Part shown: piece after piece, positions 24,391-35,337 of the stretch
Numbering within the stretch: the stretch's first letter is position 1
Layout: each line of letters opens with the position of its first letter
DNA from: Candidatus Nitrospira allomarina
Lineage (GTDB): Bacteria > Nitrospirota > Nitrospiria > Nitrospirales > UBA8639
Length of the DNA stretch: 64,000 nt
Reading direction: 5' to 3'
Assembly (NCBI RefSeq): GCF_032050975.1
Contig: NZ_CP116967.1
Location: 1,113,001-1,177,000, forward strand
Translations under genes and position numbers: made by a program
The notes under the pieces: model-generated
What the model saw: the letters and a program-made list of their open reading frames with translations, nothing else
What the model was told of the DNA's origin: nothing
The model's database searches: none

Positions 24391-26388
24391 ATGAGTGAAG
24401 TCCACATCCTACGGGATGTCCTCATTATTTTTTCTATTTCTGTTCTGGTTGTTTTTGTTTTTCAAAAACTCCGGCTACCGGCAGTTGCGGGATTTTTAGT
24501 TTCTGGCACCTTAGTGGGGCCTTACGGCCTGAACCTCATTTCCGATCTACACCAAGTCGAAACTCTCGCCGAAATCGGTGTGGTATTGTTGCTATTTACC
24601 ATAGGCTTGGAAACTTCTCTTTCGCGAATACGGGCTTCCAGAAGGCTCTTATGGGTTGGAGGTCCCCTGCAAATTTTAAGTATGCTGAGTGTTGTAGCAC
24701 TTGGGGGTTGGTTTCTGGGTCGATCATGGGAAGAATCGGTTTTCTGGGGACTGTTGTTGTCGTTGAGCAGCACCGCCATTGTCCTTAAGATTCTGGGAGA
24801 TCGAGGAGAAATGGATGCGTTGCATGGGCAAGCGACCATGGCGATTCTTATTTTTCAGGATCTAGCCGTTGTGGCTATGATTTTACTGACTCCGGTACTG
24901 GGAACGGGTTCCCAAGGGGAGACCGGGGTCATTGTCGAAACGCTCGTGAAATCCGTTTTGGTTGTGGGGTTGATCGTGTTGGCTGCTCGGGTTCTTGTCC
25001 CTCATGTTCTTCATCTTATTGTGGGGACTCGAAGTCGAGAGTTATTTCTCCTGTCGATTATTGTATTGGGGCTGGGAACGGCTTGGTTGACTTCCCTCGC
25101 GGGATTGTCATTGGCTCTAGGCGCATTTATCGCGGGGCTAGTGATTTCTGAATCGGAATATAGTCATCAGGCACTGGCCGAAGTCATTCCTTTTCGGGAT
25201 AGTTTTAATAGTTTATTTTTTGTCTCAGTGGGGATGTTAATGAATCCCTCGGTCATCGCGGAATTTCCCATTTTGGTGATGGGATTATTGGTGCTTGTCG
25301 TGTTAGGCAAGTTCCTCACAGGAACCGGAGCGGTATTCCTTGCTGGAGTTCCCGTTTCTACTGCATTATTAACGGGGGTGGCATTAGCGCAGGTGGGAGA
25401 GTTTGCCTTTATCCTGGCCCGGGTGGGGCAGGGAGAAGGATTATTGAATACCCATGCCTATAATATATTTCTTGCAGTATCGGTGTTGTCCATGACAATT
25501 ACGCCATTTTTGATTCAATGGGCTCCCCGCCTGGCTAGACGAACTGAGGCTCTTGACCGCCTAAAACATTGGTTCCCTCGACGTCAGGTCAATGTGCGGC
25601 AAAGTATCAAGATTAAAGTCAAAGACCATGTCATTATCGTGGGTTATGGCTTAAATGGCCGGAATCTTGCCAGGGTTTTAAGTGATATGGAGATTCCATT
25701 TGTGGTGCTGGACGTCAATCCTGATGTCGTGCAGGCTGATCAAAAAAAGGGACGGGGCACCATGCTCTATGGGGATGGGACGAATCCCAGAGTGTTGACT
25801 CAAGCCGGCATCTTATTGGCGCGAGTACTCGTGGTGGCTACCTCTGACCCTTTTGGCGCGCGCCGAATTGTTCAACAAGCACGACAACTGAATCCCAATC
25901 TTCATATTGTCGTACGAACACGATATTTAAAGGAATTGCAGGACCTTCAAGAACTAGGAGCCAATGATGTCGTGCCGGAAGAATTCGAAACATCAATTGA
26001 AATTTTTGCCTTGGTTCTGCGTACCTATCAGACGCCGAAGAACAGGATTCAAGATAAAGTTGAACAAATTCGTCGGGAAGGGTATCTCCTACTCCGGAGA
26101 GGGGAGCTCCCTGAGTTAGCACACCATCTGCGTGCTGGGACATTGGCTGATGTGCAAGTCGATACCTGTCGGGTGGAAAACGATTCTCCCGCGTTGGGGA
26201 AACCATTGACGCAGTTGCATATCCATGGACGGACAGGCGCTTCGGTGATTGCGATTACACGGGATGGCGTGACGCAATCCAATCCTTCTCACGAAACGAT
26301 TCTGGAGCCAGGTGATGTCCTCGTCCTTCTTGGTGCGCGTGAGCAAATCCGTAAGGCCATCGCCTTGCTCGTGGATGTCAAAATGTAA
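24391..26388 (+). CDS. CPA2-family cation:proton antiporter with TrkA-N and TrkA-C domains (KefB-like)
   Basis: 665 residues. Residues 1-~385 form the Na+/H+ exchanger-type membrane domain (~12 segments, e.g. GFLVSGTLVGPYGLNLI, FTIGLETSL). Residues ~410-530 are a TrkA-N/RCK Rossmann domain with VIIVGYGLNGRNLARVL and a conserved acidic strand end (VVLDVNP). Residues ~570-660 are a TrkA-C domain. Such proteins exchange K+ or Na+ for protons and are gated by nucleotides or glutathione adducts. The start ATG has only a weak upstream site. A fragment of a paralogue of this gene lies at 29551-29629. Confidence 0.92.
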   Translation: MSEVHILRDVLIIFSISVLVVFVFQKLRLPAVAGFLVSGTLVGPYGLNLISDLHQVETLAEIGVVLLLFTIGLETSLSRIRASRRLLWVGGPLQILSMLSVVALGGWFLGRSWEESVFWGLLLSLSSTAIVLKILGDRGEMDALHGQATMAILIFQDLAVVAMILLTPVLGTGSQGETGVIVETLVKSVLVVGLIVLAARVLVPHVLHLIVGTRSRELFLLSIIVLGLGTAWLTSLAGLSLALGAFIAGLVISESEYSHQALAEVIPFRDSFNSLFFVSVGMLMNPSVIAEFPILVMGLLVLVVLGKFLTGTGAVFLAGVPVSTALLTGVALAQVGEFAFILARVGQGEGLLNTHAYNIFLAVSVLSMTITPFLIQWAPRLARRTEALDRLKHWFPRRQVNVRQSIKIKVKDHVIIVGYGLNGRNLARVLSDMEIPFVVLDVNPDVVQADQKKGRGTMLYGDGTNPRVLTQAGILLARVLVVATSDPFGARRIVQQARQLNPNLHIVVRTRYLKELQDLQELGANDVVPEEFETSIEIFALVLRTYQTPKNRIQDKVEQIRREGYLLLRRGELPELAHHLRAGTLADVQVDTCRVENDSPALGKPLTQLHIHGRTGASVIAITRDGVTQSNPSHETILEPGDVLVLLGAREQIRKAIALLVDVKM

Positions 26389-26567: not shown

Positions 26568-26893
26568 AAACCCTGCATCCCAGGTGGGTCCTGGAAGGGG
26601 ATGCGATGTCGTCTGGGCTTTCGGTGAAGGAAAGCTTCGCGAATGGATCTTTTCGTATTCCAAACCAGAGGGCCTCGTCAAGTAAGCTTTGAGCCTTCAC
26701 GCCTTGCGCACGTCTCAAGGAGAAGGAAGAAGACCTGGCAAACGTGCCGTTCAAGAACGATCATGATTGGACGCCAAGTGCCAGAAGAATTCTCCAACCT
26801 TCCCTGCCTGGTTGATGCCTAAAGGCTTTTGGGGATCCACCGATAAAAGCCCGTGAAGTAATTGGTCACGTGTCTCCTCACTCAAAAGCGAGT

Positions 26894-26922
26894 TTGGATC
26901 ATTCGAACGAAGATGGCATAAC
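26894..26922 (+). promoter_or_regulatory. Promoter-like site upstream of riboswitch 1
   Basis: TTGGAT, 17-base spacer, CATAAC. Transcription from here would begin about 12-18 bases before the aptamer's P1 helix, as expected for a riboswitch leader. The same layout (TTGAAT-17-CATAAC) is kept in the second copy. Matches to consensus are only partial. Confidence 0.45.
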
Positions 26923-26940
26923 ACAACGTAAACTAGTGGC

Positions 26941-27028
26941 CTCTTTCCGATAAAAGCAAACCCATTGTGAAGTGGGGACGCAAAGCCACGGGTCAGAATT
27001 TCTGATAGCCGGGTTACCGAAGAAAGAG
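26941..27028 (+). promoter_or_regulatory. Cyclic di-GMP-I (GEMM-I) riboswitch, copy 1
   Basis: It contains the conserved GEMM-I blocks GCAAACC, GGGACGCAAAGCC and TAGCCGGGTTACCGA. P1 closes with CTCTTTC (26941-26947) against GAAAGAG (27022-27028). P1b is CCCATT-GTGA-AGTGGG, with a GNRA tetraloop as in the known aptamer. P2 has TCAGA/TCTGA. It binds the second messenger c-di-GMP and controls the gene starting at 27076. Inference on mechanism: the aptamer's GGGTTACC (27011-27018) can pair with GGTATCCC (27068-27075) between the ribosome-binding site and the ATG (7 of 8 bp). Ligand binding could then free the start site (an ON switch). Confidence 0.93.
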
Positions 27029-27075
27029 AGACGTGCGGGAATGGGGCCTCTGTATGTGTGCGAAGGAGGTATCCC

Positions 27076-27615
27076 ATGTCCGATGGTCGTGCGGCGAGTC
27101 GTCTAAAAAGGTGTCTAGCGTGGTGTATGCTTGGCAGTTGCCTCCTTTTTCTCCCGCAGGGGGCACAAGCCGCCACCAGTGATTCGGCTACCCTCCAATG
27201 GACCGCCAATCAAGAGGCCAATTTAGCGGGATATCGGATCTATCGAGGAACCAACCCCGGGGTTTATGGGGTTCCCACGACGGTCGGGAAGATCACGACC
27301 CATCAATATACCAACTTACCCACGGACAAAACGCACTATTTTACGGTTACGGCTTTCGATGCCTCGGGCAATGAAAGTCTTCCCTCCCCCGAGGTGAAAA
27401 AATATATCGCACCGTCCTCCCCCTCTTCCGGTTCCTCGAGTCCGCCGCCGTCCTCCTCGCTCAGTATTTCGAATCTGACCGTTGCCAGTGGAGCCACGTA
27501 CCTGGTGGCCGCCGTCGGCCTCCAAGCCGGGGGGGACGGTGTATCGCGACCGCGCCTATACCTTTACCACGGTCCCTACGAGTGTGCAGGGCGCGGCCTA
27601 TATCCAAACGGCTAA
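27076..27615 (+). CDS. Exported fibronectin-III protein, N-terminal part (frameshifted gene 1)
   Basis: 179 residues before the frame ends. AAGGAGGT lies 5 bases before the ATG. Residues 1-~32 are a signal peptide (KRCLAWCMLGSCLLFLPQGAQA). Residues ~34-118 are a fibronectin type III domain (ATLQWTANQEANLAGYRIYR...HYFTVTAFDASGNES), then a serine/proline linker. The ~140-residue domain begins at ~130, but is cut by seven G at 27529-27535 where the sister copies have six. The frame then runs into junk ending GRGLYPNG. Removing one G joins this to 27482-29557 and gives an 826-residue protein. Confidence 0.8.
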   Translation: MSDGRAASRLKRCLAWCMLGSCLLFLPQGAQAATSDSATLQWTANQEANLAGYRIYRGTNPGVYGVPTTVGKITTHQYTNLPTDKTHYFTVTAFDASGNESLPSPEVKKYIAPSSPSSGSSSPPPSSSLSISNLTVASGATYLVAAVGLQAGGDGVSRPRLYLYHGPYECAGRGLYPNG

Positions 27616-29557
27616 TAATGATAAAGCGGCCACGGCAGCGGCTTTCCTCCGCTTTACGGTGAATCAACCAGTGTCCGTCACGGTAGCTTATGACGTGCGG
27701 CTCACGCCAAAACCGTCGTGGTTGAGCAGCTTTACCGATACGGGCAAGAATCTGGTGACCTCGGATACGACCTTCCGCCTCTATGCTCGGGCTTTCCCCG
27801 CCGGGACGATCACTCTCGGGGGTAATGCCGGTGGGGGGAGTGGCAGTATGTATTCCGTTATCGTTCAACCAGCGGAGGGCCCCGCTCCCGATATCACGCC
27901 TCCCACGGTAGCCTTGAGTGGCATCCAAAATGGGACGTCCCTGAGTGGCACCGTTACCGTATCGGCCATCGCCACAGATAATACTGGAGTGGTGGGTGTA
28001 CAATTCCGACTCAATGGGAGCAATCTGGGGGCGGAGGATACGACACTCCCTTTCTCGCAAATATGGGACACGACTGGATTGGTTTCCGGTCAATATACAT
28101 TGACCGCGATTGCCCGCGATGCGGCAGGCAATACCACAAGCTCAGCTCCGGTTACCGGAACCGTCGCCAATCCAACTACGCCGCCAACAACTATTTCCAC
28201 AACCAATCCAACCACGGGCTCATTAGCGATTACCAACCTGACCGTCGCTACTGGGTCGGCGTATGGCGTGTCCGCCGCCGGTCTTCGCGCCGGGGGGACG
28301 GTGTATCGTGACCGCGCCTATACGTTTACCACGGTCCCCACGAGTGTACAGGGCGCGGCGTATATTCAAACGGCGAATAATGATAAAGCGGCCACAACGG
28401 CGGCCTTCCTCCGCTTTACGGTGAATCAACCCGTGTCCGTCACGGTGGCCTATGACGTGCGGCTCACGCCGAAACCGTCATGGTTGAACAGCTTTACCGA
28501 TACGGGCAAGAATCTGGTGACCTCGGATACGACCCTTCACCTCTATGCTCGGGCCTTTCCGGCCGGGACGATCACTCTCGGGGGTAACGCCGGGGTTGGG
28601 AGCGGCAGCATGTATTCCGTCATTATTCAACCCTCAGCGCCAGTTACTACCACTGTCGATAATCCAACCACGGGCCCATTAGCGATTACCAGCCTGATCG
28701 TTGCCAATGGGTCAGCGTATGGCGTGTCCGCCGCCGGTCTTCGCGTGGGAGGGACGGTGTATCGCGACCGCGCCTATACGTTTACCACGGTTCCCACGAG
28801 TGTGCAGGGCGCGGCCTATATTCAAACGGCCAATAATGATAAAGCCGCCACAACGGCGGCCTTCCTCCGCTTTACGGTGAATCAACCGGTGTCCGTCTCG
28901 GTGGCCTATGACGTGCGGCTCACGCCAAAACCGTCGTGGTTGAACAGCTTTACCGATACGGGCAAGAATCTGGTGACCTCGGATGCGACCCTCCGCCTCT
29001 ATGCTCGGCCCTTTCCCGCCGGGACGATCACTCTCGGCGGCAATGCCAGCGGGGGAAGTGGCAGTATGTATTCCGTCATTGTTCAACCCTCAGCGCTCGT
29101 TACCAGTACTGTTGCCACTCCAACCATGCCCCCATTAAGCATTTCCAATCTGACCGTCGCTAGTGGGGCAGCGTATGGGGTGCCTGCCGTCGGCCTCAAA
29201 GCCGGGGGGACGGTGTATCGCGACCGCGCCTATACATTTACCACGGTCCCCACGAGTGTGCAGGGCGCGGCGTATATCCAAACAGCCAATAATGATAAAG
29301 CGGCCACAACGGCGTCCTTCCTCCGCTTTACGGTGAATCAACCGGTGTCCGTCACGGTGGCCTATGACGTGCGGCTCACGCCAAAACCGTCGTGGTTGAG
29401 CAGCTTTACCGATACGGGCAAGAACCTGGTGACCTCGGATACGACCCTCCACCTCTATGCTCGGGCCTTTCCGGCCGGGACGATCACTCTCGGGGGCAAT
29501 GCCGGTGGGGAGGGCGGTAGCATGTATTCCGTCATCGTCCAACCTGTGGTCCAATGA
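27482..29557 (+). CDS. Exported repeat protein, C-terminal part (frameshifted gene 1)
   Basis: The open frame nominally starts at a TTG, but real coding begins after the G tract (27536), continuing the gene that starts at 27076. It holds four copies of a ~140-residue all-beta domain; the hallmarks are GGTVYRDRAYTFTTVPTSVQ, ANNDKAAT, FTVNQPVSVTVAYDVRLTPK and FPAGTITLGGN. An Ig-like domain lies between copies 1 and 2 (~140-240: PPTVALSGIQNGTSLSGTVT). Threonine/proline linkers separate the rest. The domain looks like a surface or carbohydrate-binding beta-sandwich; I cannot name a family. Without frame correction it lacks its own start and signal peptide and would be silent. Confidence 0.72.
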   Translation: MPVEPRTWWPPSASKPGGTVYRDRAYTFTTVPTSVQGAAYIQTANNDKAATAAAFLRFTVNQPVSVTVAYDVRLTPKPSWLSSFTDTGKNLVTSDTTFRLYARAFPAGTITLGGNAGGGSGSMYSVIVQPAEGPAPDITPPTVALSGIQNGTSLSGTVTVSAIATDNTGVVGVQFRLNGSNLGAEDTTLPFSQIWDTTGLVSGQYTLTAIARDAAGNTTSSAPVTGTVANPTTPPTTISTTNPTTGSLAITNLTVATGSAYGVSAAGLRAGGTVYRDRAYTFTTVPTSVQGAAYIQTANNDKAATTAAFLRFTVNQPVSVTVAYDVRLTPKPSWLNSFTDTGKNLVTSDTTLHLYARAFPAGTITLGGNAGVGSGSMYSVIIQPSAPVTTTVDNPTTGPLAITSLIVANGSAYGVSAAGLRVGGTVYRDRAYTFTTVPTSVQGAAYIQTANNDKAATTAAFLRFTVNQPVSVSVAYDVRLTPKPSWLNSFTDTGKNLVTSDATLRLYARPFPAGTITLGGNASGGSGSMYSVIVQPSALVTSTVATPTMPPLSISNLTVASGAAYGVPAVGLKAGGTVYRDRAYTFTTVPTSVQGAAYIQTANNDKAATTASFLRFTVNQPVSVTVAYDVRLTPKPSWLSSFTDTGKNLVTSDTTLHLYARAFPAGTITLGGNAGGEGGSMYSVIVQPVVQ
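28210..29551 (+). repeat. Three tandem ~430-bp repeats coding for a ~140-residue domain
   Basis: Units at about 28210-28637, 28660-29092 and 29130-29551 are nearly identical at the DNA level. They match the first unit of the same gene (27461-27870) and the single unit of the next gene (30536-30951). Variation is concentrated in the linkers and in a few codons (SSF/NSF, HLYARA/RLYARP), which suggests recent duplication or gene conversion. Confidence 0.9.
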
Positions 29558-29629
29558 TGTTGTGTTGGAAGAATTCGATCCATCTATTGAGCTTTTTGTT
29601 TGGTTGTCCGCATCTATCCGACGCCGAAG
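29551..29629 (+). pseudogene. Remnant of a second KefB-like antiporter gene
   Basis: This ~79-base stretch matches 25961-26040 inside the antiporter gene. The first 50 bases differ at 10 positions, and a 1-base deletion follows. Translated it reads NDVVLEEFDPSIELFVW against NDVVPEEFETSIEIFAL of the intact gene. It begins within the last codons of gene 1 (CAATGA supplies its stop) and ends ~10 bases before the second long repeat. The divergence says it comes from a paralogue, not from a recent copy of the neighbour. Confidence 0.7.
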
Positions 29630-29969
29630 GCCATGATCAAAACCCTGCATCCCAGGTGGGTCCTGGAAGGGGATGCGATGTCGTCTGGGCTTTCGGTGAA
29701 GGAAAGCTTCGCGAATGGATCTTTTCGTATTCCAAACCAGAGGGCCTCGTCAAGTAAGCTTTGAGCCTTCACGCCTTGCGCACGTCTCAAGGAGAAGGAA
29801 GAAGACCTGGCAAACGTGCCGTTCAAGAACGATCATGATTGGACGGCAAGTGCCAGAAGAATTCGCCAACTTCCCCCGCCTGGTTCATGCCTTAAAGGCT
29901 TTTGGAGATCCACCGATAAAAGCCCGTGAAGTAACAAGAGCCTGTGTCTTCTCCCATTCAAGAGCGAGC

Positions 29970-29998
29970 TTGAATCATTCGAACGAAGATGGCATAAC
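29970..29998 (+). promoter_or_regulatory. Promoter-like site upstream of riboswitch 2
   Basis: TTGAAT, 17-base spacer, CATAAC; the -35 is slightly closer to consensus than in copy 1. It would start transcription just before the second aptamer. Confidence 0.45.
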
Positions 29999-30016
29999 AC
30001 AGCATAAACGAGTGGC

Positions 30017-30104
30017 CTCTTTCCGATAAAGGCAAACCCATTGTGAAGTGGGGACGCAAAGCCACGGGTCAGAATTTCTGATAGCCGGGTTACCGAAGAA
30101 AGGG
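30017..30104 (+). promoter_or_regulatory. Cyclic di-GMP-I (GEMM-I) riboswitch, copy 2
   Basis: Same fold as copy 1: P1 CTCTTTC (30017-30023) with GAAAGGG (30098-30104, one G-U pair replacing A-U), P1b with the GTGA tetraloop, GGGACGCAAAGCC, and TAGCCGGGTTACCGA. The A-to-G change in P1 keeps pairing, which supports the helix. The possible pairing of GGGTTACC (30087-30094) with GGTATCCC (30144-30151) in front of the ATG is also kept. It controls the gene at 30152. Confidence 0.93.
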
Positions 30105-30151
30105 AGACGTGCGGGAATGGGGCCTCTGTATGTGTGCGAAGGAGGTATCCC

Positions 30152-31840
30152 ATGTCCGATGTTCGTGCGGCGAGTCGTCTAAAAAAGTGTCTAGCGTGGT
30201 GTATACTTGGCAGTTGTCTCCTTTTTCTCCCGCAAGGGGCACAAGCCGCCACCAGTGATTCGGCTACCCTCCAATGGACCGCCAATCAAGAGGCCAATTT
30301 AGCGGGGTATCGGATCTATCGAGGAACCAACCCCGGGGTCTATGGGGTTCCCACGACGGTCGGGAAGATCACGACCCATCAATATACCAACTTACTCACG
30401 GACAAAACGCACTATTTTACGGTTACGGCTTTCGATGCCTCGGGCAATGAAAGTCTTCCCTCCCCCGAGGTGAAAAAATATATTGCACCGTCCTCCAACT
30501 CTTCCGGTTCCTCGAGTCCGCCGCCGCCCTCTTCGCTCAGTATTTCAAATCTGACCGTCGCTAGTGGGTCAGCGTATAGCGTGTCCGCCGTCGGCCTCCA
30601 AGCCGGGGGGACGGTGTATCGCGACCGCGCCTATACATTTACCTCGGTCCCCACGAGTGTGCAGGGCGCGGCCTATATTCAAACGGCCAATAATGATAAA
30701 GCGGCCACGACGGCCGCCTTCCTCCGCTTTACGGTGAATCAGCCGGTGTCCGTCACGGTGGCCTATGACGTGCGGCTCACGCCAAAACCGTCATGGTTGA
30801 GCAGCTTTACCGATACGGGCAAGAATCTGGTGACCTCGGATACGACTCTCCACCTCTATGCTCGGGCCTTTCCGGCCGGGACGATCACTCTCGGGGGCAA
30901 TGCCAGCGGGGGGAGTGGCAGTATGTATTCCGTCATCGTTCAACCAGCGGAGGGCCCCGCTCCCGATATCACGCCTCCGACTACTCATGTGCTTTGGCGC
31001 AATGCGAGTAGCGGTGAAGTCGCTGTCTGGCGGATGAATGGGCTAACCATTACGTCAGTCGGTTTCCCGGGAAGTACTTCTACAGAATGGAAGATTAAGC
31101 AGGTGGGAGATATTAATGGTGATGGTGAAGGCGACATCCTTTGGCAGAACACCATAAGTGGAGTGGTGGGTATTTGGCTAATGAAGGAGGGGACAATACA
31201 ATCGTTCGGCTTTCCCGGTGGTGTGTCAGCCGAATGGGTAGTTAAGGGGATCGGTGATATCAATGGGGATGGCAAAGGGGATGTGATCTGGCGCAATAAG
31301 AAAAGTGGAATGGTGACTGTATGGTTTATGGATGGGCTGTCGATTCGCTCTGTCGGCTTTCTTGGAGGCACTCCAACCGTGTGGGAAATAGAGCAAGTGG
31401 GCGACATCAATGGCGATGGGAGGGCCGACCTGGTTTGGCAGAATCGGACGAATGGCACAGTGGCGGTCTGGTTACTGAACGGGTTGACCATTACCGCGGT
31501 GGGCTTTCCCTCAAGCACTTCACTGGATTGGGAGATTCAACTACTTGGAGATGTCAATGGGGACGGTAAAGGGGATGTGATCTGGCGCAATAAGAAAAGT
31601 GGAATGGTGTCGGTGTGGCTGATGAACGGGGTGACGACACCCTTGGCAGGTTTTATAGGAGGCATACCTCTTGAATGGGACATTAGGCAGGTGAGTGATG
31701 CGGATGGAGATGGTAAGGGAGATGTGATCTTGCAAAATCGAACGAATGGCAAAGTGGCAGTGTGGCTGATGGATGGGTTGAAAATTGGTTCGGTGGGGTT
31801 TCCGGGCAGTACCCCGGTGAACTGGGAAATACAAAAATAA
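30152..31840 (+). CDS. Exported protein with fibronectin-III, repeat domain and FG-GAP/VCBS-like repeats
   Basis: 562 residues. AAGGAGGT lies 5 bases before the ATG. Signal peptide ~1-32 (LAWCILGSCLLFLPQGAQA), fibronectin-III domain ~34-118, Ser/Pro linker, one copy of the ~140-residue domain (~128-270). About six repeats of ~46 residues then run to the end, each with a calcium-loop-like D-x-N/D-x-D-G-x-x-D (GDINGDGEGD, GDINGDGKGD, GDINGDGRAD, GDVNGDGKGD, SDADGDGKGD) and WRN/WQN...VAVWLMNG. This is the FG-GAP/VCBS-like beta-propeller pattern. A secreted or surface protein, possibly an adhesin. Expression should follow c-di-GMP through riboswitch 2. Confidence 0.88.
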   Translation: MSDVRAASRLKKCLAWCILGSCLLFLPQGAQAATSDSATLQWTANQEANLAGYRIYRGTNPGVYGVPTTVGKITTHQYTNLLTDKTHYFTVTAFDASGNESLPSPEVKKYIAPSSNSSGSSSPPPPSSLSISNLTVASGSAYSVSAVGLQAGGTVYRDRAYTFTSVPTSVQGAAYIQTANNDKAATTAAFLRFTVNQPVSVTVAYDVRLTPKPSWLSSFTDTGKNLVTSDTTLHLYARAFPAGTITLGGNASGGSGSMYSVIVQPAEGPAPDITPPTTHVLWRNASSGEVAVWRMNGLTITSVGFPGSTSTEWKIKQVGDINGDGEGDILWQNTISGVVGIWLMKEGTIQSFGFPGGVSAEWVVKGIGDINGDGKGDVIWRNKKSGMVTVWFMDGLSIRSVGFLGGTPTVWEIEQVGDINGDGRADLVWQNRTNGTVAVWLLNGLTITAVGFPSSTSLDWEIQLLGDVNGDGKGDVIWRNKKSGMVSVWLMNGVTTPLAGFIGGIPLEWDIRQVSDADGDGKGDVILQNRTNGKVAVWLMDGLKIGSVGFPGSTPVNWEIQK

Positions 31841-31916
31841 GATGGGTGGGAATAACATCACCAGTTGCCTCAAATTTCAAAAAGTGATTGGTCTGGGTAA
31901 CATGTAGGGGTGAACG

Positions 31917-32708
31917 ATGACATATCAAGCTCAACGACAGCTAGGGAGCGGACGCCACTTCTTCATGGTGTGTGGCGGAGTACTTCTGGGCATCAGTCTA
32001 TGCGGCTTGCCGGATATGGTGTTGGCCACTGATCGACAGGTTCCGCTTCATGTCGATTCCGGAGGATTGACTGGTCAGTTGCACCAGGTATCTCTGCGCA
32101 CAGTCCTTGGTCAGTTGCAAAAACAATTGGGCCTTGACTATGTGGCACCGGATGCAGAATTGGAGAAAGTCATTTCGGTGAGGTTACAGAATGAACCCTT
32201 GCACAGGGCACTCTCGAAAATTTTGGGTCAGTGGGACTATGCCTTTACATTGAATGCGGCTGGACAAATCACCACACTCCATGTGATGGCTAAGGTCTCA
32301 CCGGAAGTATCCCTATCGGATAAGAAGGTTAAAGACTGGGAACGGGAACCTTCGGGGCAAAAGGCCAGTGCAGTCCCAAAAAGCGGGTTAGGAAGCCATG
32401 GGTTAGATAGGGAGAGTGAAAGTCAGATGAATAAGAATGTGCCCAGATCTGAACGGCAATCTCATGGGAAGCGAAGGTTCGGTGGACAGGTGTTCGCCAT
32501 CAGGAATGTTCCTATGGAGATTCGTCCACCTGCGCCCGGAGCATCCATGCAAATTTCCCCAGCCAATACTAGAGACATGCCGATAACTCCGGCGGGAAAT
32601 AGTGAGCCCGCGATGAAAATCATTCCTCCGACCGGATTTCCTCCTATGAAAATTCAACCCGTACCGAAAAATATTCAACAAGAAATGCTTCTTCCCCTGA
32701 ACCCATAA
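31917..32708 (+). CDS. Exported STN-domain protein
   Basis: 263 residues. N-terminal signal region with FMVCGGVLLGISLCGLPDMVLA. Residues ~45-125 match the secretin/TonB short N-terminal (STN) domain: SLRTVLGQLQKQLGLDYVAP...ISVRLQNEPLHRALSKILGQ, then YAFTLNAAGQITTLHVM. The rest (130-263) is low-complexity, rich in P, M, S and K, with no barrel or secretin core. STN domains normally sit on secretins or TonB receptors, so an isolated one is unusual. It begins 76 bases after gene 2 on the same strand and may share its transcript. Confidence 0.8.
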   Translation: MTYQAQRQLGSGRHFFMVCGGVLLGISLCGLPDMVLATDRQVPLHVDSGGLTGQLHQVSLRTVLGQLQKQLGLDYVAPDAELEKVISVRLQNEPLHRALSKILGQWDYAFTLNAAGQITTLHVMAKVSPEVSLSDKKVKDWEREPSGQKASAVPKSGLGSHGLDRESESQMNKNVPRSERQSHGKRRFGGQVFAIRNVPMEIRPPAPGASMQISPANTRDMPITPAGNSEPAMKIIPPTGFPPMKIQPVPKNIQQEMLLPLNP

Positions 32709-33218: not shown

Positions 33219-34622
33219 TCAGGGAATGATGCTCACGAGCAACATGGCAGAAGTTTGGCCGTATTGGGTTTGAAAAGAAGAGTTATTCATTTGCTGGTTG
33301 TGTGCGATTTTGAGGCTGAGGGTTTGTTGGCGATGGTTCAGATGTAAGTAGTCCCGAACGTCTTTTTTGAATAACAGGGAGACGTCGTATATTTGAGGAT
33401 TGGCGGGGATATTAGAGCGTTGGTTGAGGATATATTGTCCAAGAATCGAAACATGCAGGGAATCATCCACAGCAAGGTAGGCGTAGCCAAGTTTTGCCGC
33501 CAGCGTGTCAGTACGAAGTGCATCAAAACGATTCAGGTCCCGGGCGAATTCAATTCCCGGTTTGAGAGTCGAAGTTGGGGAAACTCGAAAATTCGAACCA
33601 AGCTTGGCAAAGAACCGATCGTTGGCCATCGTGCCACGGGAATTGACTCGCCGGATAAACCCCCACTGGGGCGTGAGATCTACCGGTTCTAACAGATTCA
33701 GGGTGCCACCCAATTTTGATCCAAATTCCTCCTCTGACCCATTCTCTCCATATTCACTTTGAGACGTTTTATAATAAGAGGACCAATCCCCCTTGCCCGC
33801 CCCGTGGAGAAACGACATGTTCGCGGAAACGGTTTCTGTGTTAATCACATTGGAGAGAGGCCCCTCAGGACGAGTGAAAATGTCTTTTTGCTGCCTGGCA
33901 TACCCAAGGGATAGGCTGGGCCAATTGGGAGCGGACAAGAGCAAAGAAAATTTTTGTTGGTTAGCGACGGTTTGAGAACGAGAGAGATCTCCCTCCACAT
34001 TACTAGTGAATCGGCTGAGTTCAATTTGGGGAGTGACGAACGGAAGATTCCATTCCCATGCCAGTTTTCCTCCTACCCGATCATTGGGCGTCGTCAGTGA
34101 AGTGTTCCCGGTTTCTTGCCCGGAGAAGCCATACTGAGCTTGATACTTCATACTGGCTGTGGTCCCCTTAAGAACGATTTGAGCTCCCATGCGGTTGGTT
34201 AACGGCGTTGCGGAGTTGTCCGTTACAAAGGGATCCCTATACATCATCTGGACTCCAGCGGACAGGGCATCATGAAAAAGAGGAATATCATTTGATGCTT
34301 CATACAAACTGCTACCACCTTGGCTCACCAGCGAGGGCATATCGCGAGCGTTCTGAAGGTTGAACGGTTCACGTTTTTGGTTAAAGTTGAAACGAGTGAG
34401 AGCATATTCATTCTTCGATACAGTACAGGGCGTGCTTGGGGAGAAGAACGGCGAAGAACGTCCTAAAGAGGAATAGTTTGGAGAGCCACATGCATTGGAA
34501 TGTGAATCGGTTCGCAGACCTAATCGATCAACGTGCGGGATCGTATCCGCAGAAAAGGCTGAATCGCTTGCAAATGGGAGAAGTAGACATCCCATAACCA
34601 ACCAGAGAACAGTCCGCACCAT
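33219..34622 (-). CDS. Probable outer-membrane beta-barrel protein
   Basis: 467 residues. AGGGGG lies 6 bases before the ATG at 34622 (a GTG one codon earlier is also possible). Signal peptide VLWLVMGCLLLPFASDSAFSA. From ~90 on the sequence alternates short amphipathic strands (e.g. MKYQAQYGFSGQE, KLAWEWNLPFVTPQIELSRF, LSLGYARQQKD, WSSYYKTSQSEYGENG, KLGYAYLAVDDSLHVSILGQY), the pattern of a large barrel. Family unknown. It ends AMLLVSIIP, without the common C-terminal phenylalanine. Confidence 0.6.
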   Translation of the reverse strand: MVRTVLWLVMGCLLLPFASDSAFSADTIPHVDRLGLRTDSHSNACGSPNYSSLGRSSPFFSPSTPCTVSKNEYALTRFNFNQKREPFNLQNARDMPSLVSQGGSSLYEASNDIPLFHDALSAGVQMMYRDPFVTDNSATPLTNRMGAQIVLKGTTASMKYQAQYGFSGQETGNTSLTTPNDRVGGKLAWEWNLPFVTPQIELSRFTSNVEGDLSRSQTVANQQKFSLLLSAPNWPSLSLGYARQQKDIFTRPEGPLSNVINTETVSANMSFLHGAGKGDWSSYYKTSQSEYGENGSEEEFGSKLGGTLNLLEPVDLTPQWGFIRRVNSRGTMANDRFFAKLGSNFRVSPTSTLKPGIEFARDLNRFDALRTDTLAAKLGYAYLAVDDSLHVSILGQYILNQRSNIPANPQIYDVSLLFKKDVRDYLHLNHRQQTLSLKIAHNQQMNNSSFQTQYGQTSAMLLVSIIP

Positions 34623-35337
34623 CACCTGCCCCCTTCGTTATGTTTTTTCTCTCATCTTTATCGGTTAGCAACTCAGATGCCGTAGGGCAAAATGGGCAGA
34701 AATTTCCTCCAAAATTGCAAATATTTGTTAGAAGAAAAATAAGAGAGTTGATCTCATTGCTAATATTTCAAATTGCAACAATTTTGGAGTTGGAAAGTTT
34801 TTCCCATGTGCGAGAAACCTGAGTGAATCTGGGGGATTCCAGACACAGGTTCCCTGTGCTTTTATAACCACAAAGGAATTGTGGCGATAAAGAAACGATA
34901 GAAAGTGGAGGCAGATAGCGGCCACCCCGGAAATTCGGTGAATCAGGTGTCTATCTCGCTTTTGAAATCCTGAAATAATCGAAAATCTGTATCCAAAAGT
35001 CACAAAGGATGCCTAAAACGATATAATGACATGGTGTTACCCTAAAGGTATTGTAAGGCGCGAACGACGGCTGCATGTTCAAAACGGTATGATCCCAAAA
35101 ATGGATGTGGGAAATAGTGAATACATATTTTTACTACTTTTCATCTCACCAAGTATGGGAGTTTGGCGAGAAGTTTGGGATTATGAAAAGCCTCGTAATG
35201 TCGAAAGAATCAGGCCCCGTAATGATATTCAGTTTCTTGAGACTAACGAGTACGCACATTTGACGGGAAGATGTATATTTTTAACTCCTCAAAGCCCCTC
35301 AGTTCTTAAATGAATGGGTGAAAAAATGGAGGCCTTG
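34623..35337. other. Divergent intergenic region, AT-rich
   Basis: 715 bases, more AT-rich than the neighbours. Related inverted elements sit near 34708 (TCCAAAATTGCAAATATT) and, on the other strand, near 34770-34797. A TATAAT occurs at 35022-35027. A 95-codon frame (35026-35313) has no ribosome-binding site or recognisable product. It must contain promoters for both flanking genes. Confidence 0.4.

Follow-up and report, generated by a model that had tools for sequence, protein, structure and literature searches.

The region at positions 26568-32708 of a 64,000-nucleotide window of the genome of the marine nitrite oxidiser Candidatus Nitrospira allomarina (contig NZ_CP116967.1; the window is the whole stretch of DNA analysed) raises the question of how two nearly identical riboswitch leaders act on the genes behind them, and whether both of these genes still work. 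Our best explanation, which taken as a whole we hold to be moderately probable, is that a riboswitch-controlled gene for exported repeat proteins was duplicated in tandem, that c-di-GMP would turn its translation OFF, and that copy 2 would be the working gene in Ca. Nitrospira allomarina, with copy 1, as sequenced, inactivated by one base. The features of the locus are listed in Table 1.

Table 1. Features of the duplicated riboswitch locus, in window coordinates.
Feature	Position	Strand	Basis
Duplicated unit, copy 1	26568..27906	+	94% identity to 29640-30981
5' flank GGCCUC, leader 1; pairs with platform GGGGCC in the ligand-free model; 3' half common to P1	26938..26943	+	6/6 pairs in 22/22 leaders
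c-di-GMP-I (GEMM-I) aptamer 1, A at position 20 (window 26955)	26946..27022	+	cmscan, own-genome search, alignment
P1 3' strand, leader 1, GAAAGAG; pairs with CUCUUUC 26941-26947	27022..27028	+	P1 covariation
Expression platform 1: GGGGCC 27043-27048, SD AAGGAGG 27063-27069, ATG 27076	27043..27078	+	Sequence, folding
Gene 1 as its frame reads: product of 179 aa with signal peptide, fn3 and the beginning of the domain	27076..27615	+	ORF, Pfam
G7 run breaking the gene 1 frame; G6 at 30605-30610 in copy 2	27529..27535	+	Sequence, alignment
Gene 1 continued out of frame: remaining part of domain 1, Big_7 (27902-28108), 140-aa domains 28220-28633, 28679-29089, 29135-29545	27536..29557	+	ORF, Pfam
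Duplicated unit, copy 2	29640..30981	+	Alignment to copy 1
5' flank GGCCUC, leader 2	30014..30019	+	Flank:platform pairing analysis
c-di-GMP-I aptamer 2, G at position 20 (window 30031)	30022..30098	+	cmscan, own-genome search, alignment
P1 3' strand, leader 2, GAAAGGG	30098..30104	+	P1 covariation
Expression platform 2: GGGGCC 30119-30124, SD AAGGAGG 30139-30145, ATG 30152	30119..30154	+	Sequence, folding
Gene 2, intact, 562 aa: signal peptide, fn3, 140-aa domain (30533-30946), FG-GAP repeats	30152..31840	+	ORF, Pfam
Third gene, 76 nt after gene 2: 263-aa protein, predicted to be exported, with a weak STN-like match	31917..32708	+	ORF, Pfam

Alignment of the two halves of the locus revealed a tandem duplication with 94% identity over 1343 columns, the exact left edge of which is position 26568. 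Each 1.34-kb unit comprises the leader with its GEMM-I aptamer, a signal peptide, an fn3 domain and the first 140-residue domain. A search of the organism's own genome found no third copy of the upstream segment, and the unit is therefore not a dispersed mobile element. Gene 2 and the 263-aa gene form a conserved pair, as an orthologue of the latter follows the FG-GAP copy in several related loci. The initial annotation had placed an STN-domain protein here; a gene does follow gene 2, but its STN match (17.6 bits) lies below the Pfam cut-off of 28.4 bits and its orthologue in the related genome G001 has no match.

Both aptamers exceeded the Rfam gathering scores in a covariance-model search of the leaders, in agreement with the initial annotation: aptamers 1 and 2 scored 71.0 and 74.2 bits with RF01051 (gathering score 35), and 65.4 and 72.1 bits with RF03167, also above its gathering score. 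Rfam lists both as c-di-GMP-I-GGC (RF03167), which we rejected as a call of specificity since position 47 is A; both aptamers read GACGCA rather than the RF03167 consensus GACGCG, which has G in place of A47, and for both the RF01051 bits equal or exceed those of RF03167. A promoter-like site proposed for each aptamer did not withstand comparison with chance, as sigma-70-like promoters gave 3 matches in the region versus 5.3 expected in shuffles and none before an aptamer. Because no promoter or terminator match precedes the aptamers, the scan found no terminator in either leader and the counts fall below those of the shuffles, transcriptional attenuation is not favoured. The strong ribosome-binding sites noted previously are present, with AAGGAGG located 6 nt before each ATG.

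We then considered the pairing of the leaders. The P1 stem covaries, with four of seven pairs altered on both sides and 96.8% of cells paired; double-sided changes were found in 23 cells as compared to 6.3 in shuffles, no shuffle among 500 was as high, and slid controls were far lower. In all 22 related leaders, which come from 3 genera, the helix between the 5' flank and the platform keeps its six pairs, with two double changes from C-G to U-A among them; by contrast, 2 of 2443 other upstream hexamers pair fully. Folding computations placed two states within 1.0-2.4 kcal/mol of each other, and the probability that the Shine-Dalgarno (SD) sequence is unpaired was 0.67-0.68 with the flank:platform helix versus 0.29-0.30 with P1. 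Together, the leaders of the 22 loci argue for a translational OFF switch with two states, in which P1 would exclude the flank:platform helix and this helix, in turn, would exclude a hairpin that sequesters the SD. With c-di-GMP bound, the P1 stem (CUCUUUC/GAAAGRG) would close, leaving the platform segment GGGGCCUC free to pair with GAGGUAUCCC over the SD and start region, and translation would be OFF. In the ligand-free RNA, the 5' flank GGCCUC, which overlaps P1, would instead pair with GGGGCC, such that the SD would be freed and protein made. Two results count against this model: SD accessibility in the free ensemble of leader 2 was 0.27, i.e., not clearly open, and the SD hairpin showed no covariation (88.6% paired, no better than shuffles).

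The opposite polarity, in which the ligand-free 5' flank pairs with the SD and c-di-GMP switches translation ON, is suggested by the complementarity of CCUCUUUC in the flank to GAAGGAGG of the SD in both leaders, which likewise counts against the OFF model, and by the Vc1 riboswitch of Vibrio cholerae, the target gene of which, gbpA, encodes a chitin-binding protein that is exported, and in which a ligand-contact mutation lowers GbpA (PMC4744006). We consider it unlikely, as the helix kept in every one of the 22 leaders, with double changes, is flank:platform, the flank and the SD pair weakly in leaders in which UUCU or UUCC comes next in the flank, and the SD is mostly paired in folding once P1 is enforced. 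Whichever way translation responds, the ligand of copy 1 is a further issue, as the aptamers differ at a single base in 77 nt, which the initial annotation missed. This base is position 20, A in aptamer 1 and G in aptamer 2, and the chance of a single difference landing there is 1 in 77. Position 20 determines c-di-GMP/cGAMP specificity, and a G-to-A change lets GEMM-I bind cGAMP (PMC6274999, PMC7288161); G20 is a ligand contact that the Rfam family definition does not include. Aptamer 2 has all of the contact bases G20, A47 and C92, and aptamer 1 keeps A47 and C92. Copy 1 might thus sense 3',3'-cGAMP and copy 2 c-di-GMP, a one-base ligand split between twin riboswitches. In the genus, A20 is present in 10 of 88 aptamers, and in 9 of 32 leaders of exported-fn3 and response-regulator genes versus 0 of 44 of Flp, sigma28 and fn3 group 2 genes (Fisher p 0.0002, shared ancestry not corrected), a distribution that also favours such a split. 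However, a DNA pattern search for the Hypr-type GGDEF (GHxxGS) gave no GGDEF in 21 genomes, its matches being out of context only, whereas the canonical GHxxGD, the positive control, was found in all; each of the seven GGDEFs in this genome retains Asp. A SMODS cyclase is absent from this genome and G001, no synthase for cGAMP, whether a Hypr GGDEF with Ser or a DncV-like enzyme, was found in the genome, and the gene behind the A20 aptamer is broken here. The cGAMP split is therefore improbable in our estimation. Because A20 recurs although no Hypr cGAMP synthase was detected, weaker sensing of c-di-GMP, or decay, is the likelier explanation, and A20 should weaken the binding of c-di-GMP by aptamer 1. 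Orthologous GEMM-I switches have G at position 20 in some species but A in closely related ones (about five separate events, a hand count without a tree); such differences concern the genes for exported proteins and response regulators and not those for pili or sigma factors. The broader proposal that the twins divide one signal between two responses, through either affinity or ligand (c-di-GMP versus cGAMP), with position 20 as a recurrent tuning site in the family, is in our view unlikely.

Gene 1 is not one open frame, which had also been overlooked: its G run is seven long versus six in copy 2, and its frame therefore stops at 27615, giving a 179-aa product and an out-of-frame continuation to 29557. 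Thus, the earlier view that two proteins are driven from this locus is only partly supported: copy 2 is intact, but copy 1 is frameshifted in this genome, although it is intact in G001; in G005 it is a wreck. The frameshift reflects either decay or an assembly error. There is about an even chance that copy 1 is a decaying duplicate in which the G7 frameshift and A20 are loss-of-constraint mutations, with copy 2 alone functional. The frame is broken after about 151 of some 800 codons, the intact copy 1 of G001 carries G20, and the wreck in G005 is independent (several frameshifts, altered P1 and SD) and accompanied by an intact copy 2. Against this, the copy 1 leader and SD are otherwise intact, and the codons after the frameshift are under purifying selection relative to G001 (dN 0.049, dS 0.318), so that inactivation would be very recent at most. 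Such selection on the out-of-frame remainder agrees as well with an assembly error inside the 94% repeat, a possible but less probable source of the frameshift, and a still less likely one of A20. The genome is an Illumina and Nanopore co-assembly (PMC10579370), and the difference is one base of homopolymer length in a repeat where short reads map ambiguously; on the other hand, the genome is a closed circle for which short reads were also used, and A20 is a substitution, not a homopolymer change, that arises independently in other genomes. A programmed frameshift at G7 was rejected, as it would need one G to be skipped, we see no motif that would support it, and the run is G6 in the paralogues.

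The encoded proteins are, as initially annotated, paralogous fn3 proteins, predicted to be exported, that share a domain of ~138 residues and differ in their C-terminal halves, one with Big_7 and further copies of the domain and the other with FG-GAP repeats (PF13517, 75.7 bits; PF01839, 73.9 bits; both over the Pfam cut-off). The fn3 score relative to the cut-off of 25 bits was 25.6 in copy 1, 24.7, just below, in copy 2, and 32.3 in G001 copy 1. The shared domain was thought to be undescribed, and it indeed has no Pfam or NCBIfam model, but profile and structure comparisons clearly matched it to the solved C-terminal domain of the GH2 beta-glucuronidase 6HPD (E 2.9e-18; Z 19.4, rmsd 2.2 over 136 residues) and also to that of the GH138 enzyme BP0997 (6HZF; Z 11.6, rmsd 2.9 over 123 residues). 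Unlike these enzymes, the proteins here have no catalytic domain, and the domain, at about 23% identity, is repeated up to four times behind fn3. Its conserved residues include W88, R81, D31 and R32. A weak NCBIfam alpha-galacturonidase match (22.8 bits versus 1300) agrees with a sugar-enzyme accessory domain. Pfam VanA_C, RMI1, MT-A70 and KH matches on the repeat protein were taken as chance, as no stretch passes alone, and plasmid records held only two distant relatives of the domain. Since the predicted exported products combine this accessory domain with fn3, Ig and FG-GAP and have no catalytic domain, their most likely role is binding to polysaccharide or to surfaces at low c-di-GMP.

A search of related genomes found the head of riboswitch, export signal and fn3 at 17 loci within the genus and also in further genera of the family, with five kinds of tail behind it (FG-GAP, Ig, InlB-type, galactose-binding-like and coiled-coil), so that the suggested common head with exchangeable tails holds across the family. 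Head identity was 96.5% (G000) and 99.0% (G001) within a genome and 92-93% between genomes; the 5' module (leader, signal peptide, fn3) is evidently homogenised within a genome by concerted evolution, and the 3' parts diverge. Elsewhere in the genus GEMM-I switches target Flp pilin, sigma28-like and response regulator genes, as expected for c-di-GMP.

The aptamers share with Vc2-type c-di-GMP-I riboswitches (RF01051) the fold, A47, C92, G20 (in copy 2) and the type of gene regulated (environment, membranes, motility). They differ in forming a near-identical tandem pair on separate paralogous genes, in a 5' flank that would serve both P1 and the anti-sequestor helix, and in A20 of copy 1. Vc1 likewise belongs to class I of the c-di-GMP switches and precedes the gene for an exported protein that binds surfaces, gbpA, but it has no apparent anti-SD sequence or terminator (PMC4744006), whereas the platform here looks like a translational OFF switch. 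GEMM switches before fn3 proteins are already known in Geobacter: in G. sulfurreducens a GEMM-I likewise precedes the surface fn3 protein KN400_1971, and tandem duplication or tail exchange is not described there (PMC13194489). Geobacter belongs to a different phylum and uses cGAMP as well. The Geobacter cGAMP riboswitch (GEMM-Ib) has A20, A47 and C92, as does copy 1, but here no Hypr GGDEF was found and the sister aptamer has G20.

No c-di-GMP regulon of Nitrospira was described in the literature searched. Nitrospira is a main group of nitrifiers, and to our knowledge no genetic tools exist for it. The present locus and those related to it indicate such a regulon, made up of repeat proteins that are exported, Flp pilin, a flagellar-type sigma factor and response regulators, and offer a testable RNA mechanism for it. 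The head with exchangeable tails shows a riboswitch evolving within an expression-and-export cassette, and the natural G20/A20 pairs provide ready material on how a single base shifts the affinity or the choice of ligand of a well-studied riboswitch for cyclic dinucleotides.

In the window, genes that we take from their sequence to be leuCD-like are followed by a KefB-like antiporter gene, copies 1 and 2, a weak-STN gene and further genes, including an msrA-like one; order is identical, with both copies intact, in G001, the other one-contig genome of the genus (locus L066). Alignment of 26568-27906 with 29640-30981 showed 94% identity across 1343 columns. The first ~205 bases of the duplicated units are identical, the ~170-base stretch before the aptamer is clearly more divergent, and the aptamer itself carries a single difference. 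It was found that the heads (first 400 coding bases) of the two copies share 96.5% identity in G000, the genome holding the window, and 99.0% identity in G001; across genomes, head identity drops to 92-93%. For the leaders, the within-genome values are 94.1% and 97.3%, respectively, versus 87-91% across genomes. Because heads and leaders are closer within genomes while the tails are orthologous across them (89-92%), the tandem pair is older than the split of the two species, its heads being homogenised through gene conversion. Several genomes retain the 263-aa exported protein of the weak STN match downstream of the FG-GAP copy; the 468-aa protein adjoining the module, with a signal-like start, had no Pfam or NCBIfam match.

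Gene 2 is intact and encodes a signal peptide (identified by eye), fn3, one 138-residue domain and FG-GAP repeats. In gene 1 the head is present, and the frame stops at 27615 owing to a G7 run (27529-27535), behind which lie Big_7 and three further 140-residue domains, matching the 814-aa G001 protein. Since the codons past the lesion show dN 0.049 and dS 0.318 against G001, the lesion is either very young or an assembly artefact; the published Ca. Nitrospira allomarina VA chromosome is a co-assembly that combines Illumina with Nanopore data (PMC10579370). In another genome, G005, copy 1 (L070, G005:C126:10320-10397) is a pseudogene remnant with multiple frameshifts and degenerate P1 (aptamer closing stem) and Shine-Dalgarno (SD), and copy 2 is intact; copy 1 was thus lost there independently.

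Within the family, relatives of the head were found in 29 of the 49 genomes, which represent 7 of its 10 genera. Behind the common aptamer, signal and fn3 stand divergent InlB B-repeats, FG-GAP repeats, charged-repeat coiled coils, a galactose-binding-like domain (match below cut-off) or nothing further. Among eleven loci scanned outside the genus, the seven best head scores had a c-di-GMP-I aptamer and the four weakest had none. Thus, the common head with exchangeable tails proposed in the initial annotation is well supported as an evolutionary pattern from these comparisons.

For the 140-residue domain (16 aligned members), Pfam and NCBIfam gave no model match of note. A profile search found the C-terminal domain of the GH2 enzyme 6HPD (E 2.9e-18), and the AlphaFold model (pLDDT 89.7) matched 6HPD (Z 19.4, rmsd 2.2, 136 residues) and the end of the GH138 enzyme 6HZF (Z 11.6, rmsd 2.9, 123 residues). 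The domain, with relatives in Desulfobacterium, Gemmatimonadaceae, Planctomycetaceae and others, is a sugar-hydrolase accessory fold deployed here in repeat proteins without an enzyme.

We compared the leaders of 22 such heads, drawn from three genera. P1 (CUCUUUC with GAAAGRG in G000) showed pairing in 96.8% of cells, and both partners had changed in 23 cells versus 6.3 in shuffles. Overlapping its 5' strand is a flank, GGCCUC (GGCUUC, GGUUCC, GGCCCC or GGCUCC among relatives), complementary in 22/22 leaders to a platform before the SD, GGGGCC or GGAGCC (other upstream hexamers, 2/2443); a C-G to U-A change was seen twice in this helix. Because P1 and the flank:platform helix have bases in common, they are mutually exclusive; the platform is alternatively complementary to sequence over and behind the SD. 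In folding, the SD was unpaired with probability 0.67-0.68 when the flank:platform helix was enforced and 0.29-0.30 when P1 was, the two states differing by 1.0-2.4 kcal/mol. Closed P1 would let the platform pair over the SD and mostly hide it; the flank:platform helix would leave it mostly free. This anatomy suggests a translational OFF switch. Covariation for the SD hairpin was looked for in the leaders and not found.

Both aptamers scored above c-di-GMP-I cut-offs in the Rfam scan and own-genome search. Rfam clan competition called c-di-GMP-I-GGC; since that model has G at position 47 and both aptamers A, we treat them as putatively ordinary c-di-GMP-I. Their sole difference, A at 26955 versus G at 30031, falls by our alignment at position 20 (Vc2 numbering; then G21 C22 A23 A24 A25). 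Position 20 and C92 contact the ligand's two bases, and G20A permits cGAMP binding (PMC6274999, PMC7288161); mutants at positions 20/92 bind c-di-GMP more poorly (PMC9049102).

A ligand split between the twin aptamers would be the most surprising reading and is unlikely on present evidence. Position 20 is G in 77, A in 10 and C in one of the 88 GEMM-I aptamers read across the genus (21 genomes), and orthologous leaders alternate between A and G from species to species: the 133-aa fn3 protein leader has A20 in G000 and G001 and G20 in other genomes, the response regulator leader A, G or C, and, in another genus, leaders of near-identical proteins A20 (L159, G044) or G20 (L161, G042). L159 scored best with the Rfam c-di-GMP-I-UAU model, despite A20 and C92. 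A20 occurred in 0/44 Flp pilin, sigma28-like and fn3 group 2 leaders versus 9/32 in three other groups (Fisher p 0.0002, ignoring shared ancestry). Hypr-type GGDEFs carry Ser in place of an Asp (PMC6456294); six of seven GGDEF domains of G000 have GHxxGD and the degenerate seventh retains this Asp, no GGDEF across the genus matched the Hypr-type pattern (canonical pattern, 21/21 genomes), and SMODS cyclases are present in two other genomes only, all of which disfavours cGAMP. A20 is more simply read as a sign of weakened c-di-GMP switching or of drift.

The remaining single aptamers in the table would form the rest of the GEMM-I regulon in G000. A second tandem pair, 3.5 kb apart, precedes a different group of exported fn3 proteins, some of which contain FG-GAP repeats and the same 140-residue domain; these aptamers are also paired in G019 (921507 and 924410).

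Coordinates of features in the window and of other GEMM-I loci in G000
Feature	Position	Locus or remark
KefB-like antiporter	24391-26388	upstream of copy 1
Aptamer 1	26946-27022	
Gene 1	27076 (start)	
Aptamer 2	30022-30098	
Gene 2	30152-31840	
263-aa exported protein	31917-32708	
468-aa protein	33219-34625 (-)	
Second tandem aptamer pair	G000:C1:4261209-4261290 and 4264788-4264869	L007, L009
Aptamer, Flp pilin-like	G000:C1:1915653	L004
Aptamer, sigma28-like factor	G000:C1:3556075	L006
Aptamer, CheY-like response regulator	G000:C1:2463565	L008; C20
Aptamer, 133-aa fn3 protein	G000:C1:2035701	L002; A20

Previously, GEMM-I was known before an exported binding protein, gbpA (PMC4744006), and an fn3 protein, KN400_1971 of Geobacter (PMC13194489), an arrangement likewise seen at this locus. 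A literature search on Nitrospira and c-di-GMP riboswitches returned only unrelated papers. What is new is the family-wide head cassette under concerted evolution, the dual-use flank and the natural G20/A20 alternation; altogether, these findings are sound and testable, but mostly a variation on known biology.
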